Origin: Vulcanimicrobiota bacterium
Lineage (GTDB): Bacteria > Vulcanimicrobiota > Vulcanimicrobiia > Vulcanimicrobiales > Vulcanimicrobiaceae
Direction of reading: 5' to 3'
Assembly: GCA_003161435.1 (NCBI GenBank)
Contig: PMOS01000004.1
Span: forward strand, 1-64,000
DNA length: 64,000 nucleotides
Positions 37,285 through 43,491 of the stretch are shown piece after piece (position 1 is the stretch's first letter; every line of letters starts with the position of its first letter). The position numbers and the translations under genes are program-made. Under the pieces are notes generated by a model. It was not told where the DNA came from. It made no database searches and saw only the letters and a list, made by a program, of their open reading frames with translations.

Positions 37285-37809
37285 TCAGGGATTCCGCTCG
37301 AGGCGTAGTTCGTACAGCAACTCGTCGTCGTCGGTCCCGTCCGGCCACGTCGTCCGAGCCGTGCCGGTCATGACGAACCCGAATCGTTCATTGGCGCGCT
37401 TGGACGGCTCATTGGAACGCCGATGAGACACGACCACGCGTTCGAATCGCTCCTGCTCCACAATCCAACGAAGCCGCGCCTCATAGAAGAGCCGCGACAA
37501 CCCACGGCCGCGATATTCTGGAAGCAAATACGACATCGCTAGGACGGCTGTCTTCCCGGTGGGATCATCGCGCGACGGAACAACGGCCGTTATCCCGACC
37601 AGAGCGTCGGCGGCGAATACTCCGAAGACTTGACGATCCGGCCCACTCAAAAGATCTTGCCACGCGGCGTCCTCGAGAGCTGACTCTTGTGCGAAGGACC
37701 GTGCAAACAATCCCGGTTCCGTCCGTGCTCGAAAGGCGTCGGTGGCATATTCGCGAAATCTCTTGAATATGCCCCGTCTCTCAGCAGCCGACCGCAAGCG
37801 GAGCTTCAA
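37285..37809 (-). CDS. GNAT family N-acetyltransferase
   Basis: A GNAT protein of up to 174 residues with VFGVFAADALVGITAVVP, the acetyl-CoA loop MSYLLPEYRGRGLSRLFYEARL (R-G-R-G), and a final strand SNEPSKRANERFGFVMTGTART. The start at 37809 overlaps the divergent ArsR gene by 41 bp, so a later start is possible, but none with ATG keeps the N-terminal helix. Substrate unknown. Divergent from the ArsR-rhodanese operon, sharing its promoter region. Confidence 0.8.
   Translation of the reverse strand: MKLRLRSAAERRGIFKRFREYATDAFRARTEPGLFARSFAQESALEDAAWQDLLSGPDRQVFGVFAADALVGITAVVPSRDDPTGKTAVLAMSYLLPEYRGRGLSRLFYEARLRWIVEQERFERVVVSHRRSNEPSKRANERFGFVMTGTARTTWPDGTDDDELLYELRLERNP
37744..37773 (+). promoter_or_regulatory. 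palindromic operator over the ArsR-rhodanese start
   Basis: GGCATATTC at 37744-37752 and GAATATGCC at 37765-37773 form a perfect 9-bp inverted repeat with a 12-bp spacer. The right arm contains the ATG of the ArsR-rhodanese gene. ATTC...GAAT arms resemble sites of sulfide-responsive ArsR proteins (BigR/SqrR type). Confidence 0.65.
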
Positions 37810-38452
37810 GCAGGACGTCTACGGGGCGGTCGCCCGCATCCCGGCGGCGCTTGCAAACCGCCATCGGCTCGAACTGCTCGACCTCGTCTCGCAGCGGCCG
37901 CGCACGGTCCAGGATCTCGCCGCCGAGGCAGGCGTCACGGTGGCCAACGCTTCTCAGCACCTGCGTGTGCTCGCGACGTGCGGGCTGGTTTCGGTCGAAC
38001 GTCGAGGCACGTTCGCGTTCTACCGCGCGGCCGACCCGGCGGTGTACCGCCTGCTGGTCGAGTTGCGCGCCGTCGCCGAATCCGTCGACGGCAAGATCGC
38101 GTCCGCGGAACGCCGCTACTTCGGCGCGCGCGAGCCGGGGATACCGACCTACGATGCCGCTCGGGACGTGATCGCGGACCGGCGGACCGCGCTGCTCGAC
38201 GCCCGCCCACGTGAGGAGTTCGAGGCTGCCCACCTGCCGGGCGCGGTCAGCGCGCCGCTCGATGCGCTTCGCGCCGGCAAGGTCAAGTTGCCGCGCTCGA
38301 AACGGTACGTCGTCTACTGCCGCGGGCCGTACTGCGTTTTCGCCGACGAAGTCGTCGCGTTGCTGCGCGAACGCGGACTCGAGGCGACGCGTCTCGCGCT
38401 CGGACCCGCCGAGTGGGTCGCGGCGGGCGGCGACGTCACCAGTGTCGGCTGA
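37769..38452 (+). CDS. ArsR-type regulator fused to a rhodanese domain
   Basis: A 227-residue fusion. Residues about 10-100 are an ArsR winged helix (HRLELLDLVSQRPRTVQDLAAEAGVTVANASQHLRVL...). Residues about 120-225 are a rhodanese domain (LLDARPREEFEAAHLPGAVSAPLDAL) with active-site loop YCRGPYCVFADEV. The active cysteine can carry a persulfide, so the protein could sense reactive sulfur species directly. It overlaps the next MFS gene by 11 bases and heads the operon ending in the persulfide-dioxygenase-like gene. No CVC arsenic site is present. Confidence 0.92.
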   Translation: MPRLSAADRKRSFKQDVYGAVARIPAALANRHRLELLDLVSQRPRTVQDLAAEAGVTVANASQHLRVLATCGLVSVERRGTFAFYRAADPAVYRLLVELRAVAESVDGKIASAERRYFGAREPGIPTYDAARDVIADRRTALLDARPREEFEAAHLPGAVSAPLDALRAGKVKLPRSKRYVVYCRGPYCVFADEVVALLRERGLEATRLALGPAEWVAAGGDVTSVG

Positions 38453-39707
38453 GGCCGCGGGTCGCATCCGCCTCGGACTCGCGGCGAACGCGACACAGTT
38501 CTGGCTGCTCGTCGCGGTCAACGCCTTCGTCGGCTCCATGGTCGGCATCGAGCGCGACGTGTTGCCGCTCGTAGGCATGCGCGTTTTCGGGCTGGCTTCA
38601 GAGACCGCGGTCCTGTCGTTCATCGTCACGTTCGGGTTCAGCAAGGCGCTCGCGAACCTGTACGCGGGGCGCACGGCCGACCGCCTCGGGCGCAAACCGC
38701 TGCTCGTCGCCGGATGGCTGTTCGCGATTCCGGTCCCCCTTTTGTTGATGTACGCGCCGGCGTGGGGATGGATCGTCTTTGCCAACGTCCTGCTCGGCAT
38801 CAACCAAGGTTTGTGCTGGTCGATGACCGTCGTGATGAAGATCGACCTCGTCGGGCCGAAGCAGCGAGGTTTCGCGATGGGGCTCAACGAGTTCGCCGGC
38901 TATCTCGCCGTCGGCGTAGCGGCGTACCTTTCGGGCGCCATTGCCGTCGCATACGGTCTGCGGCCGTGGCCGTTTGCGCTCGGCATCGTGTCGGTCGGCG
39001 TCGCGCTCGCGTTATCCGTGTTCTTCGTGCGCGAGACGCATGGCCACGCGCGCTTCGAGTCGGCCGGCGGCGGGCTGCCCGCCGCCGCGGTTCCATTCGG
39101 CGCGCTCTTCGCGCGCGTCTCATGGAAGGACCGGACGCTCTCGTCGATCAGCCAAGCCGGGCTCGTCAACAACCTCAACGATGGGCTGGCGTGGGGACTG
39201 CTACCGCTGCACTTCGCCGCGGCGGGCTTGGCGATCGAACGCATCGCCGTTCTCGCGGCCATCTACCCCGCGACGTGGGGCATTTGCCAGCTATGGACCG
39301 GTGCGCTGTCCGATCGCGTCGGCCGTAAGTGGATGATTGCGGGCGGCATGACCACTCAAGCGGCCGCTATCGCGCTGTTTCTCGTTCCGGCGAACTTCGC
39401 CGTCTGGCTCGCGGGCGCGGCACTGCTCGGTTTCGGGACGGCGATGGTCTATCCGACTCTGCTCGCCGCGATCGGTGACGTCGTCGATCCGCTCGTGCGC
39501 GCCTCGTCGGTCGGCGTGTACCGCTTGTGGCGCGACTCCGGCTACGCGTTTGGCGCGCTCCTCTCGGGCGCCGTAGCGCACGCGCTCGGACAGGACACCG
39601 CAATCGCGGTCGTGGCGACGCTCACCCTTGCTTCCGGTGCCGTCGTCGCGGTCCGAATGCGCGAAACGCATCCCCGCGTATCGACCCAGAAAGGAGCAAC
39701 CTCATGA
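38442..39707 (+). CDS. MFS transporter
   Basis: A 421-residue transporter with 12 predicted helices. Signature A-type loops are seen: AGRTADRLGRKPLLVAG after helix 2 and GALSDRVGRKWMIAGG after helix 8. The long stretch GINQGLCWSMTVVMKIDLVGPKQRGFAMGLNE is characteristic of an MFS group often found with ArsR-rhodanese genes. The GTG start lies inside the end of the regulator gene, and its stop overlaps the metallo-hydrolase ATG. Substrate unknown; possibly a sulfur compound. Confidence 0.88.
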   Translation: MSAEAAGRIRLGLAANATQFWLLVAVNAFVGSMVGIERDVLPLVGMRVFGLASETAVLSFIVTFGFSKALANLYAGRTADRLGRKPLLVAGWLFAIPVPLLLMYAPAWGWIVFANVLLGINQGLCWSMTVVMKIDLVGPKQRGFAMGLNEFAGYLAVGVAAYLSGAIAVAYGLRPWPFALGIVSVGVALALSVFFVRETHGHARFESAGGGLPAAAVPFGALFARVSWKDRTLSSISQAGLVNNLNDGLAWGLLPLHFAAAGLAIERIAVLAAIYPATWGICQLWTGALSDRVGRKWMIAGGMTTQAAAIALFLVPANFAVWLAGAALLGFGTAMVYPTLLAAIGDVVDPLVRASSVGVYRLWRDSGYAFGALLSGAVAHALGQDTAIAVVATLTLASGAVVAVRMRETHPRVSTQKGATS

Positions 39708-40429
39708 TCTTCCGGCAGATTCTGCGCGCCGAAACCGGCTGCGCGTCGTACGTCTTCGGTTGAGGCGGCCAAGGCCGCGCCGCGGTCGTCGATCCTCAGT
39801 TCGAGGTCGCCCAATACGTCGAAATAGCCCGGGACCGCGGAATGCGGATCGAGGCTATTCTGAGCACGCACGTCCACGCCGATCATCACTCCGGCGACCG
39901 CGCGCTCGCCGAGGCGACCGGTGCGCCGATCTACTATCACCGCAGCGCTGAACTCGATTTCCCGTTCACGGCTCTCGACGATGGCGCCGAAGTGTCGCTC
40001 GGGAACGTCATCATCCGCGCAATGCACACGCCCGGACACACCCCGGAGAGCACATCGTACCTCGTCACCGACCGCACCCGCAGTGAAGACCCGTGGATGG
40101 TGTTCACCGGCGACACCTTGTTCGTGGGCGACATTGGGCGCCCCGACTTCGGTGGCCCGACAGCCGCAAAGGATCTCTTCCGGTCGCTGCATGACCGGCT
40201 TCTCGCTCTTCCGGATTACGTTGAAGTCTACCCGGCGCACATTTCCGGCAGCCCATGTGGCCGCGCCATGAGCGGCAAGCCCTCGTCGACGATCGGATTC
40301 GAGCGCCGGCACAATGCTGCGCTGCTTGAGGCCGATCGCGACGTCTTCGCTGAAGCGATCGCCGGATTTCTACCACCCATGCCGGCGGAATTCGTCGCGA
40401 CGATCACGACAAACCGTCGAGGTGGTTGA
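39704..40429 (+). CDS. persulfide-dioxygenase-like MBL hydrolase with in-frame TGA (candidate selenoprotein)
   Basis: Read through the TGA at 39761-39763 (codon 20), the frame runs 241 codons from an ATG that overlaps the MFS stop. The N-terminus is MIFRQILRAETGCASYVFG-[TGA]-GGQGRAAVVDPQ. In this family the residue after FG is normally Cys, so TGA replaces TGC/TGT. Downstream are the metal motif THVHADHHSG, MHTPGHTPES, FTGDTLFVGDIGRPDFGG and YPAHISGSPCG...KPSSTIGFERRHN, the ETHE1/Blh/CstB-like persulfide dioxygenase pattern. Reinitiation at ATG 39842 would give a 195-residue protein lacking the first strands. Alternatives are a nonsense mutation or sequencing error. Confidence 0.8.
39773..39787 (+). 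promoter_or_regulatory. SECIS-like hairpin after the in-frame TGA
   Basis: The stem GGCCGC/GCGGTC (6 bp, one G-U pair) closes a 3-base loop GCC that begins with G. The loop lies 16-18 bases after the TGA, within the usual spacing of bacterial selenocysteine insertion hairpins, which carry a G at the start of a small apical loop. Confidence 0.5.
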
Positions 40430-40439
40430 GGTGAAACCC

Positions 40440-40808
40440 ATGATGCGCCGCCCGGCGTTCATCACCGCCGTCATCGCGGTCCTCACGGGTTGCACGGGAC
40501 GACCTCGCTCTGCGTCTGGTTCTAGCGGTATGCGAATGATGAACGGTAGCTCAGGCCAGCACGTGCCGAGCATGTACCGGCACGTCGATGAAGGGAACGA
40601 AGTGCGCTGCATGAGCGATAGCTTGCCGACGATGTTCCGCAACGCGTCTCGATACAATCGGCACTCGGAGTTGACCAAGGCCGGCGTCGCCGTCACGGAA
40701 ACGTCTGAAGACCCGGTAGTCCTGGCCGCCATACGCCGGCATGCGCGCGAAGTGACCGGTTTCGTGCGCGATGGAATGCCGGCGATGATGCACGGCATGA
40801 TGGAGTGA
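40440..40808 (+). CDS. Met/His-rich lipoprotein before multicopper oxidase
   Basis: A lipoprotein of about 122 residues. The leader MMRRPAFITAVIAVLTGC ends in a lipobox. The mature part is rich in Met and His (GMRMMNGSSGQHV, MYRHVDEGNEVRCM, GMPAMMHGMME), a copper(I)-binding composition. The start could also be GTG 40431. It is 10 bp after the hydrolase and 22 bp before the multicopper oxidase, suggesting a copper-delivery or sensing partner for that enzyme. No named family recognised. Confidence 0.75.
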   Translation: MMRRPAFITAVIAVLTGCTGRPRSASGSSGMRMMNGSSGQHVPSMYRHVDEGNEVRCMSDSLPTMFRNASRYNRHSELTKAGVAVTETSEDPVVLAAIRRHAREVTGFVRDGMPAMMHGMME

Positions 40809-40830: not shown

Positions 40831-42318
40831 ATGGTTGACCGTCGCGTATTCCTCGAACTCGCCGGTGCGGCCGCTGCGACGGCGGCAGGCGGACCCGCGC
40901 TCGCCGGCCAGGTGAACTCCACGGTTGGGAAAGCCGACTACACGATTCGCATCGCCGAAACCGCGGTCGAACTCGCGCCCGGCCGCGTCGTCCGAACCAC
41001 CACCTACAACGGCGGTTTCCCGGGTCCGCTGCTGCGCCTGCGCGCGGGTCGGAAAACCACGGTCGAATTCGTCAACGAGACGGCGACGCCGGAGCAGTTC
41101 CATTGGCACGGGCAATTCGTGCCGTCGCACGTCGACGGCGCCGCGGAAGAACGGACGCCCTACATTCCGGCGAACGGCCGCAAACGCATCTCGTTCACGC
41201 CGGGTCCGGCAGGCTTCCGGTTCTACCACACGCACCTGCGAGCGGGATCCGATCTGAGCGCCGGACAGTACACCGGCGAAGTCGGCCCCGTGTTCGTCGA
41301 GCCGCAGCACGACCCCGGACGGTACGACCGCGAGGTGTTCCTCGTGCTCAAGGAGTTCGAGCCGTCGCTGAGCCGCGGCGGCGACATGGCGCAGGATTTT
41401 CTGGCCGGAGCCGAGGTCGACGACCTCAAGTCTCGCGGCGAGACGGCGATGCGCCGTTCCCTTGCCTCGGGGATGCCGAAGGGATACGAAGTCGGTTACC
41501 GGACGTTCTCGATCAACGGCCGGATGCTCGGCCACGGCGAGCCGATCCGGGTTCGGCGCGGCGAGCGCGTGCTGTTCCACGTTCTGAACGGCAGCGCTAC
41601 CGAGATTCGAAGCCTCGCATTGCCCGGACACAACTTCACCGTCGTCGCGCTGGACGGTAATGTCGTCCCGAAACCCACCACGGTCCCGGTACTGTGGATC
41701 GGCACGGCGGAACGCGTCGACGCGATGGTCGAGATGAACGAGCCGGGCGTCTGGATTCTCGGCGACAGAAGCGACGACGATCGCGGCAACGGCATGGGGC
41801 TCGTCATCGAGTACGCCGGACACGCCGGAGCGCCGCGCTGGGTGAAAGCGCCGGAAACGCATTGGAACTATGCGGACTTCGGGCACCACGGCGGGGTTGC
41901 GGCCGTCCCCGACGAGACGATCGAAATGACGTTCGCAAAACAGAACGCGGCGTTCCACGGCTTCAACGTGTGGACCATCAACGGCGTGCCGTACGCCGGC
42001 GGCGCATCGCTGGAGATGCCGGGGTCGATGGACGTCATGAAGCCGATGTTTCACCTGCACGAAGGCGGACGCTACCGCATACACATGCGCAACGCCAGCG
42101 ACGACATCCATCCGATCCACCTCCATCGCCACACGTTCGAGCTGATGCGCGTAGCCGGCCGACCGACATCCGGCGTGATGAAAGACGTCGTCATGCTCGC
42201 GGGCTATCAAGAGATGGAGATCGACTTCGTCGCGGACGACCCTGGCCTCACGTTGTTCCACTGCCACCAGCAGTTGCACATGGACTTCGGCTTCATGGCG
42301 CTGTTCGACTATATCTGA
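40831..42318 (+). CDS. multicopper oxidase
   Basis: A 495-residue three-cupredoxin oxidase. An N-terminal leader (DRRVFLELAGAAAATAAGG) resembles a Tat signal. All four copper motifs are present: FHWHG (about 90), FYHTHLR (about 131), HPIHLHRH (about 427) and HCHQQLHMDFG (about 475), the last with the type 1 Cys. Laccase or CopA-like: it could oxidise Cu(I) or organic substrates in the periplasm. It follows the Met-rich lipoprotein in the same operon. Confidence 0.94.
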   Translation: MVDRRVFLELAGAAAATAAGGPALAGQVNSTVGKADYTIRIAETAVELAPGRVVRTTTYNGGFPGPLLRLRAGRKTTVEFVNETATPEQFHWHGQFVPSHVDGAAEERTPYIPANGRKRISFTPGPAGFRFYHTHLRAGSDLSAGQYTGEVGPVFVEPQHDPGRYDREVFLVLKEFEPSLSRGGDMAQDFLAGAEVDDLKSRGETAMRRSLASGMPKGYEVGYRTFSINGRMLGHGEPIRVRRGERVLFHVLNGSATEIRSLALPGHNFTVVALDGNVVPKPTTVPVLWIGTAERVDAMVEMNEPGVWILGDRSDDDRGNGMGLVIEYAGHAGAPRWVKAPETHWNYADFGHHGGVAAVPDETIEMTFAKQNAAFHGFNVWTINGVPYAGGASLEMPGSMDVMKPMFHLHEGGRYRIHMRNASDDIHPIHLHRHTFELMRVAGRPTSGVMKDVVMLAGYQEMEIDFVADDPGLTLFHCHQQLHMDFGFMALFDYI

Positions 42319-42327
42319 AGCTCGACC

Positions 42328-43491
42328 GTGAAGCGCTCTAGCGTTTCGGCACTGCGCTTCGTGGTGCTGATGGGAGTCGTCAATCTCTTCGCCGACATGA
42401 CGTACGAGGGATCCCGGGGCGTGGTCGGCGCCTATCTCGGCCACCTCGGCGCAAGCGGTGCCACGATCGGCGCGGTCGCGGGCGGGGGCGAGCTCGCGGG
42501 TTATGCGATCCGCACCGTTTCCGGGACCATCGCGGACCGCACCGGATGGTACTGGATCGACGTGTGGATCGGCTACGCGCTCAACATGTTGTGCGTTCCG
42601 GCGCTCGCGCTGACCGGGAGTTGGCCTGCCGCGGCCGGCTTGGTCATCGGCGAGCGCCTCGGCCGCGGAATCCGTCGGCCGGTTGTCGCCGCGATGCTCT
42701 CGCAAGTCGGAGAGCAGATCGGTGCCGGACGCGTGTTCGGACTCAACGAGGCGCTCGACCAAATCGGGGCGACGATCGGCCCGCTCATCGTCGCCTTCGC
42801 GATCGCACGCGGGGGCGGCTTTACCGTCGGTTTCGGCGTCTTGATCGTACCGGCGCTGCTGACGCTCGCGTTTCTCGCGGCGGCGAACGCCGCGGGCCGG
42901 GCCATCATCCCGCGCGAGGCGGGCCCGCCGGGGCCTGCGATACGCGACCGGCCGGCATTCCGCCGGTACGTCATTGGAGGCGCGCTCGTGGCGGCCGGAT
43001 ACGTCGACTTCGCGTTGATCGCGTTCAGATTCCAGCGCGACCACATCATCGGAGCGGCCGCCATATCGGTCTGGTTCGCGGTCGCGATGGCGGTCGCGGC
43101 CGTCGCCGCCCCTATCCTCGGCCGGCTCTTCGACCGAATCGGCAGGCCGGTGGTCGCAATCGCACTGGTGCTGACCGCAGCCGCGACACCCATGGCGTTC
43201 TTGGGCCATGGCGCGGTCGCGCAGGCCGGTGTCGCGCTTTGGGGCGTTGGGACCGCCGTGCAGGACGCGTTGCTCCTGGCGCTCGTGTCCACGGTCATCG
43301 CGAGTCGGCGCAAAGCGACAAGCTTCGGACTCTACGATCTCGTGTTCGGGGTCGCGTGGTTCGCCGGCAGCATCGCCTGCGGCGCCCTCCTCGACCGTTC
43401 GATCGGCGGGCTCGTCGCGTTCTCGGTCGCCGCGCAGCTTCTGGCCGTGCCGTTCTTCGTTTTCGGGGGACGAGTGAGGCGTGCGACCTGA
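42328..43491 (+). CDS. MFS transporter
   Basis: A 387-residue carrier with about 12 helices. The N-terminal part reads RFVVLMGVVNLFADMTYEGSRGVVGAYLGHLGASGATIGAVAG, and a signature loop GERLGRGIRRPVVAAMLSQVGEQIGAGRVFGLNEALDQIGATIGPL follows helix 4. GTG start 9 bp after the oxidase, so it belongs to the same operon. This MFS subgroup is often beside copper oxidases; a metal or metallophore substrate is plausible but unproven. Confidence 0.87.
   Translation: MKRSSVSALRFVVLMGVVNLFADMTYEGSRGVVGAYLGHLGASGATIGAVAGGGELAGYAIRTVSGTIADRTGWYWIDVWIGYALNMLCVPALALTGSWPAAAGLVIGERLGRGIRRPVVAAMLSQVGEQIGAGRVFGLNEALDQIGATIGPLIVAFAIARGGGFTVGFGVLIVPALLTLAFLAAANAAGRAIIPREAGPPGPAIRDRPAFRRYVIGGALVAAGYVDFALIAFRFQRDHIIGAAAISVWFAVAMAVAAVAAPILGRLFDRIGRPVVAIALVLTAAATPMAFLGHGAVAQAGVALWGVGTAVQDALLLALVSTVIASRRKATSFGLYDLVFGVAWFAGSIACGALLDRSIGGLVAFSVAAQLLAVPFFVFGGRVRRAT

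Follow-up and report, generated by a model that had tools for sequence, protein, structure and literature searches.

An MBL gene in the window (the whole stretch of DNA analyzed, 64,000 nucleotides) very probably encodes a selenocysteine (Sec)-containing protein of the persulfide-dioxygenase branch, with the in-frame UGA at codon 20 being decoded through a SECIS element, SelB and tRNA-Sec and with the gene forming a three-gene module with an ArsR-rhodanese gene and an MFS transporter gene. The window is derived from the genome of a soil bacterium, a Candidatus Eremiobacterota MAG of 3.83 Mb that is 83.4% complete. Sec at codon 20 had been proposed in a preliminary description of this DNA, and the proposal was supported by the presence of TGA in 14 of 14 close orthologs, by alternation between Cys and TGA, by the Sec machinery of relatives, by a TGA-type SelD and by synonymous constraint at the RNA level. 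The gene and its two sites of interest are as follows.

39704 to 40429, + strand: gene for a predicted Sec-containing, persulfide-dioxygenase-like MBL protein; 241 codons, with the UGA at codon 20 read as Sec
39761 to 39763, + strand: UGA codon 20, selenocysteine reading; TGA in 5 Bacillota loci and in 14 of 14 close phylum orthologs; 29 of 92 homologs have Cys
40256 to 40258, + strand: Cys185 (TGT) of the GSPCGR motif; TGA (Sec) at this codon in 8 of 92 homologs

The MBL frame starts at ATG 39704 and contains a single internal stop, the TGA at 39761 to 39763, before the terminal TGA at 40427 to 40429. Frame analysis bore out the preliminary description in placing this TGA at codon 20 of an otherwise open frame of 241 codons. 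The same was true of the ATGA overlap with the upstream MFS gene, whose stop codon occupies 39705 to 39707, and of the start that an automatic caller would choose; without read-through, the next in-frame start is ATG 39842, which opens a 195-amino-acid ORF.

Orthologs were sought in 149 genomes of the Eremiobacterota phylum, 37 of which contained a match at E values of up to 1e-35. The internal TGA was present, as the single stop within the match, in all 14 phylum orthologs with at least 51% identity, one of which (L107 of genome G003) is split into two frames near residue 145. Among the matches listed at 49% identity or less, the next ones contained no stop, and codon 20 in those that were fetched specified Cys, Ser, Asp, Leu or Met or fell in a gap. 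A peptide-pattern scan of 84,980 genomes yielded 65 loci; codon 20 was TGA in 6 Eremiobacterota and 5 Bacillota loci and was TGC/TGT, GAC/GAT, TCN or a gap in the other loci covering this position. The claim that relatives have Cys at the position of the TGA was confirmed by 29 of 92 homologs, many of them distant, and an alignment of homologs, set beforehand as a check for alternation of Cys and TGA at residue 20, detected this alternation in the more distant homologs. The gene thus combines a conserved in-frame TGA with Cys in homologs, as is typical of bacterial selenoproteins. Codons 1 to 19 exhibited synonymous variation across the phylum while the amino acids were held (for example, Thr11 as ACC/ACA/ACG and Ala14 as GCG/GCC/GCT/GCA), indicating that this segment is translated as protein.

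The set of 92 homologs consisted of sequences with distinct DNA obtained with tblastn at E values of up to 1e-35. No two of the kept rows were identical; L096, L031 to L035 and L038 were left out of the counts, and each duplicated a kept row throughout the match. The states at residues 20 and 185 were Cys/Cys in 26 homologs, Sec/Cys in 14, Sec/Sec in 5, Cys/Sec in 3 and other combinations in 44, the last having a gap, Ser, Asp, Met, Leu or no coverage at 20 and Cys at 185 in every case. The alignments contained 30 in-frame stops, 27 of which were located at codons 20 (n = 19) or 185 (n = 8) and were all TGA. The three remaining stops were a TAA at 54, a TAG at 217 and a TGA at 62, the last lying within a badly aligned piece. 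Cys185 of the GSxCG motif was invariant in a 38-row alignment when TGA was counted as Cys.

TGA was present at both positions in all five Bacillota homologs (L051, L057, L063, L066 and L069) and at 185 alone in three homologs from Nitrospinae/Chloroflexi (L039, L073 and L074), in which the internal stop corresponded to the Cys185 codon. One of the double-TGA sequences, L063, belongs to Sulfobacillus harzensis DSM 109850, which is a named strain rather than a MAG. Sec at 185 was accompanied by Cys or Sec at 20 in 8 of 8 cases drawn from only three lineages, which is no more than a hint of a link between the two sites. The codon-20 site of the preliminary description stood, while the codon-185 Sec site of the relatives and a second hairpin at 39791 to 39808 had been missed.

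The DNA immediately downstream of the UGA contains three features.

39773 to 39808, + strand: SECIS region, codons 24 to 35, with nearly frozen synonymous sites
39773 to 39787, + strand: hairpin A, GGCCGC-GCN-GCGGUC, with the loop after 15 nt from the UGA
39791 to 39808, + strand: hairpin B, GA(U)CCUC-AGUUC-GAGGUC, the proposed SelB-binding element, with the loop after 34 nt from the UGA

Synonymous identity, defined as the frequency of the same codon in pairs of homologs sharing an amino acid, was determined for codons 21 to 36, codons 186 to 200 and the rest of the gene. In the Eremiobacterota (TGA at 20 and Cys at 185; 12 sequences), the respective values were 0.852, 0.475 and 0.485; this test repeated one with 13 rows but without the duplicate created by L035 and L172, which have identical DNA. 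In the 13-row version, which included both, the SECIS stretch was the best of 228 sliding windows. The five Bacillota sequences with TGA at both positions had values of 0.756, 0.680 and 0.519. As L057, L066 and L069 resemble one another, the values for L051, L057 and L063 alone were also derived and were 0.625, 0.600 and 0.407. With 13-codon windows, the five Bacillota sequences had their best start at codon 24, and the first peak separate from it was at 190. The three sequences with Cys at 20 and TGA at 185, for which only 28 to 33 pairs were available in the test stretches, had values of 0.321, 0.545 and 0.377. No excess constraint after codon 20 was observed in three control groups lacking TGA, namely, Deltaproteobacteria with Cys at both positions (n = 7; 0.452, 0.586 and 0.549), Bacillota with Asp at 20 (n = 8; 0.323, 0.413 and 0.402) and sequences with a gap at 20 (n = 12; 0.492, 0.468 and 0.479). 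Comparison of these groups indicated that the synonymous excess tracks each TGA and not Cys or Asp at the same codon. The nearly frozen stretch of 36 bases after the UGA is the SECIS signal, which was thus detected through constraint at the RNA level.

The two hairpins of this stretch differ in how they fit published rules. Hairpin A of the window (GGCCGC-GCC-GCGGUC; −7.7 kcal/mol) was also present when a longer stretch of the window was folded, and codon 26, in its loop, was the sole varying codon among codons 24 to 32. This is the hairpin that the preliminary description had put forward as a SECIS element; it exists at 39773 to 39787, but its spacing of 15 nt is one base short of the 16 to 37 nt between UGA and loop quoted in section 5 of PMC13188914. 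Hairpin B, with a CCUC/GAGG stem, a bulged U and a loop read by eye as having G in second place and then U, satisfies the loop and spacing rule of that section. It folds at −4.3 kcal/mol, is weak alone and by itself misses the energy rule given there. Longer stretches folded otherwise than as hairpin B, with folds differing between sequences, and the stems were invariant in Eremiobacterota and hence showed no covariation there. Hairpin B is the likelier SelB site, although A and B could not be told apart with these data. The longest codon-20 stem obeying the plain loop and spacing rule had 4 bp, which is ordinary for this gene, and the hairpin rule was rejected as stand-alone evidence because most codons of the gene permit equally long stems. 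As rule-fitting hairpins are common in this DNA, a hairpin alone is weak evidence and the frozen synonymous sites are strong evidence. After the TGA at 185, all five Bacillota sequences contained GUGGAAA-GGUCG-UUUCCAC, with the loop 20 nt past the UGA, and the hairpin of L039, L073 and L074 had a loop containing G between arms of GUGGC/GCCAC or GUGGC/GUCAC. By eye, the fifth pair of these two types is A-U versus C-G, and the types differ in length by three bases.

The presence of sel genes in the genome had been set as a check of the Sec reading. Its outcome was mixed; selD was found twice in the window's 83%-complete MAG, while selA, selB and tRNA-Sec were not found. For selA there was no match and for selB none over the cut-off. 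No tRNA-Sec was detected among the 150 of 562 first-look candidates that were scored; the sole match to the tRNA-Sec model over the cut-off (47.7 bits) was rejected as it was a tRNA-Ser (tga). One selD copy, on C35 (L018), has Cys, and the other, on C28 (L017:1480-2526, the same as C28:308490-309416), has TGA at the catalytic position, within SHGAGUACK, and matches the UxxK motif that identifies Sec-type SelD in Table 1 of PMC13188914. The TGA-type copy adjoins a rhodanese-like gene and has two tandem hairpins after the TGA, the second with the loop GUC. In a relative, G055, a selD with an in-frame TGA (SCAG*ASK; L022) was observed directly beside selA.

Machinery was also scored in the 11 TGA-bearing relatives first known (the later-found G167 and G127 are outside these counts). 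selA was present in 11 of 11, selB in 10 and tRNA-Sec in 9, with all three in 8 of the 11. All nine tRNAs were called SeC(tca) by ARAGORN; no tRNA-Sec over the cut-off was found in G013 or G016, and no selB was found in G003. Other genomes of the same genus as the window's MAG had selA over the cut-off in 9 of 10 cases. Among 37 chosen genomes, selA exceeded the cut-off in 5 of 7 with TGA at 20, 3 of 3 with TGA at 185 only and 15 of 27 others; with 8 of 10 TGA genomes against 15 of 27 without TGA, presence of selA was rejected as proof of Sec. Two genomes with TGA at 20, G060 (L051) and G066 (L035), gave no selA match. L035 is identical in DNA to L172, found in G127, a genome of 91% completeness, so incompleteness explains the missing selA less well in this case. 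A 35-kb selA-selB block of the relative G001 (positions 780000 to 815000), whose MBL region is 79% identical to the window over 2.7 kb, had no match of more than 75% identity over more than 160 bases in the window's MAG in two runs, with 40 of the more than 800 first-look candidates being scored in each. The selA-selB block seems to be missing from the window's assembly, which fits incompleteness without proving it. We infer that Sec insertion occurs in the window's own strain.

The translated protein ends at residue 241 and matched only Lactamase_B models (Pfam, 56 bits); its NCBIfam matches were all far below their own cut-offs. The best sequence matches of known structure were 3tp9 (E 4.7e-50) and 3r2u (E 4.8e-43), followed by the persulfide-dioxygenase-type structures 8zbd, 4ysb and human ETHE1 (4chl). 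An AlphaFold2 model had a mean pLDDT of 94.9, and Foldseek ranked 3tp9 and 3r2u first (TM-score of 0.93 to 0.95 on the query) and then 4ysb, so that an MBL fold was found whose best matches are the known persulfide-dioxygenase-type structures. Strands 2 to 8, 13 to 20 and 25 to 29 and the invariant Asp30 form part of the modeled fold, and residue 20 is presumably at the sheet end away from the metal, to judge from strand order and family knowledge. A 2-His-1-Asp iron triad is present in ETHE1; the corresponding residues H56, H112 and D137 were present in the window protein, which retains H56, H58, D60, H61, H112, D137, H179 and C185. Ligand changes were observed in some members of the family. 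In an Eremiobacterota ortholog with TGA at codon 20 (L035:5001-5711), the His residues at window positions 58 and 112 are replaced by Gln and Tyr, respectively, which may mean that the iron site has been lost. His for D137 and Ala for H179 were found in the five Bacillota double-Sec forms and also in a homolog with Cys at both positions (L078). The changes in L035 and the double-Sec forms indicate that the usual iron triad is unusable by some members. Some homologs extend into rhodanese domains. The persulfide-dioxygenase label is drawn from sequence, fold and motifs, and the activity is a predicted one; we know of no enzymology of this protein.

The MBL gene is preceded by two co-conserved genes.

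37742 to 38452, + strand: ArsR-family HTH fused to a rhodanese domain, a putative sulfane-sulfur sensor; NF033788 over the cut-off, PF01022 and PF00581 over gathering scores
38442 to 39707, + strand: MFS transporter, a putative exporter; PF07690, with the GTG start at 38442 by our reading

Among the closer Eremiobacterota loci, those with sufficient sequence had the gene order ArsR-rhodanese, MFS, MBL; in four of the five Bacillota loci and in G041 (L106) the order was ArsR-rhodanese, MBL, MFS. L105 had MBL and MFS genes without an ArsR match, and L069 had nearly no upstream sequence. The three-gene module is thus kept in two phyla. The same trio, annotated as ArsR/SmtB factor, MBL fold metallo-hydrolase and MFS transporter, was found on plasmids of Methylocystis rosea (L182, with a divergent ArsR gene) and Cytobacillus oceanisediminis (L183), in both cases with a Cys-type homolog. 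In Candidatus Chlorohelix (L184, Ser at 20), the neighbors were rhodanese and TauE genes instead of the trio. A search of titles and abstracts revealed nothing on the cargo of the MFS protein. Downstream of the MBL gene, the window contains a small gene (40440 to 40808) that by eye has a lipoprotein or secreted-protein start and a 76%-identical 76-amino-acid stretch of which adjoins the ArsR-rhodanese gene of L106. Positions 40831 to 43491 encode a multicopper oxidase and a second MFS transporter, no close copies of which were seen in the compared loci.

Two other readings of the TGA were weighed, and both were considered very improbable. The TGA could be a true stop, with the protein starting at ATG 39842 and the upstream codons being a remnant or a leader peptide, as would be consistent with the 195-amino-acid ORF and with selA, selB and tRNA-Sec being missing from the assembled part of the window's MAG. 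This reading is opposed by the retention of amino acids with synonymous changes in codons 1 to 19 across the phylum, by the inclusion of the three N-terminal strands and Asp30 in the modeled fold and by the identity of the codon-20 stop, which was always TGA and never TAA or TAG in 19 sequences. The absence of the Sec genes from the assembly would equally suit a UGA read by a near-cognate tRNA or a reassigned code, to which we attach just as slight a chance, as the ArsR-rhodanese, MFS and MBL genes themselves terminate in TGA and as TGA stands in for Cys at two distinct sites across four lineages. Furthermore, selA exceeded the cut-off in 8 of 10 TGA genomes and 11 of 11 relatives, with tRNA-Sec (tca) in 9 of the 11.

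Much less remote, but still doubtful, is that the protein is a selenoprotein with a different function, being either an MBL hydrolase of another kind or a redox protein of the thiol/selenol type acting in, for example, a metal, arsenic or selenium response. The NCBIfam scores far below the cut-offs, the ArsR-type regulator and MFS neighbor, and the altered metal ligands of L035 and the Bacillota forms are consistent with such a function. An MBL-fold protein, possibly of the present family, was the most induced protein (6.3-fold) in the account that PMC7409299 gives of Sulfobacillus thermotolerans on an arsenic-rich sulfide concentrate. A persulfide-dioxygenase function is favored over this alternative by the best PDB matches, which by both sequence and fold were 3tp9 and 3r2u and then known persulfide dioxygenases, by the retention of all eight motif residues in the window protein and by the continuation of some homologs into rhodanese domains.

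With the Sec-containing persulfide dioxygenase as the preferred reading, SelB and tRNA-Sec would decode the UGA of codon 20 as selenocysteine by means of the SECIS just 3′ of it. Most likely, by analogy with what is known of these families, the regulator is a sensor of sulfane sulfur, and a thiol persulfide is oxidized by the MBL enzyme with Fe(II). Sensing by the ArsR-rhodanese protein would derepress the operon, the enzyme, with Fe(II) at H56/H112/D137, would convert low-molecular-weight persulfides to sulfite, and the MFS protein would export a product. Sec20, and Sec185 in other lineages, may participate in redox chemistry or in the transfer of sulfane sulfur, possibly acting as a 20-185 pair; the Sec/Cys pattern suggests that the two positions work together. 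A tentative extension, which we regard as possible rather than probable, is that a single functional chalcogen pair is made up of residues 20 and 185, that the family spans dithiol, selenenyl-sulfide and diselenide reaction centers and that the Bacillota pair may act with little or no help from iron. PMC6060420 describes two Cys residues of the Acidithiobacillus caldus enzyme as essential and as possible partners in a disulfide, presumably neighboring each other on the protein surface, indicating that Cys residues other than metal ligands matter in persulfide dioxygenases. By alignment to 4ysb and by numbering, these residues of the A. caldus enzyme are not residues 20 and 185.

By sequence and model, the protein is most similar to CstB-type enzymes in their MBL domain; these enzymes are represented by 3r2u of Staphylococcus aureus, which we take to be CstB, and by 3tp9 of Alicyclobacillus acidocaldarius. 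The MBL domains of both aligned with the window protein over nearly the full length, and both have Cys at the positions matching 20 and 185, whereas the window protein has Sec at 20. CstB, or Type III persulfide dioxygenase, is defined in PMC6060420 by a C-terminal rhodanese domain in the same chain. The window protein has no fused rhodanese domain; instead, rhodanese is fused to the ArsR regulator. ETHE1, or Type I, enzymes (4chl, 4ysb and 8zbd) share the fold and metal motif but have lower similarity, and 4ysb has Asp aligned to residue 20 and a gap at the GSxCG stretch. Sec-containing SelD likewise has an in-frame TGA for a catalytic Cys but is an unrelated protein of a known selenoprotein family. 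The selenoprotein subtype of Type III sulfide quinone reductase (NF049943), listed in Table 1 of PMC13188914, resembles the present protein in placing Sec in sulfide oxidation but belongs to another protein family and acts at another step.

The 2026 catalogue of prokaryotic selenoproteins in PMC13188914 counts families and subfamilies together, 119 in all. Neither an MBL-fold protein nor a persulfide dioxygenase was present among the catalogue rows covered, the nearest entry in the pathway being the Sec-type sulfide quinone reductase. No selenoprotein model of NCBIfam 20.0 matched the window protein (E up to 0.001) or L063, L039 and L073 (E up to 1e-10), and no report of Sec in this MBL family was found in titles and abstracts of the open-license literature. 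By this evidence, the selenoprotein family is new, and the enzyme is a novel variation on the persulfide-dioxygenase kind.

These results point to an apparently unlisted selenoprotein family, probably acting in sulfide/persulfide detoxification, in Eremiobacterota, Bacillota, Nitrospinae and Chloroflexi. Ordinary gene callers would truncate or split such genes, which are, therefore, probably mis-annotated. Independent gains of Sec at two Cys positions mark residues with testable roles in CstB-like persulfide dioxygenases, and residues 20 and 185 probably matter for the chemistry. The occurrence of the double-Sec form in a named strain, S. harzensis DSM 109850, makes the prediction testable. 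If residues 20 and 185 do act as a pair, the Bacillota double-Sec enzymes would represent a selenium-based way of handling persulfides.
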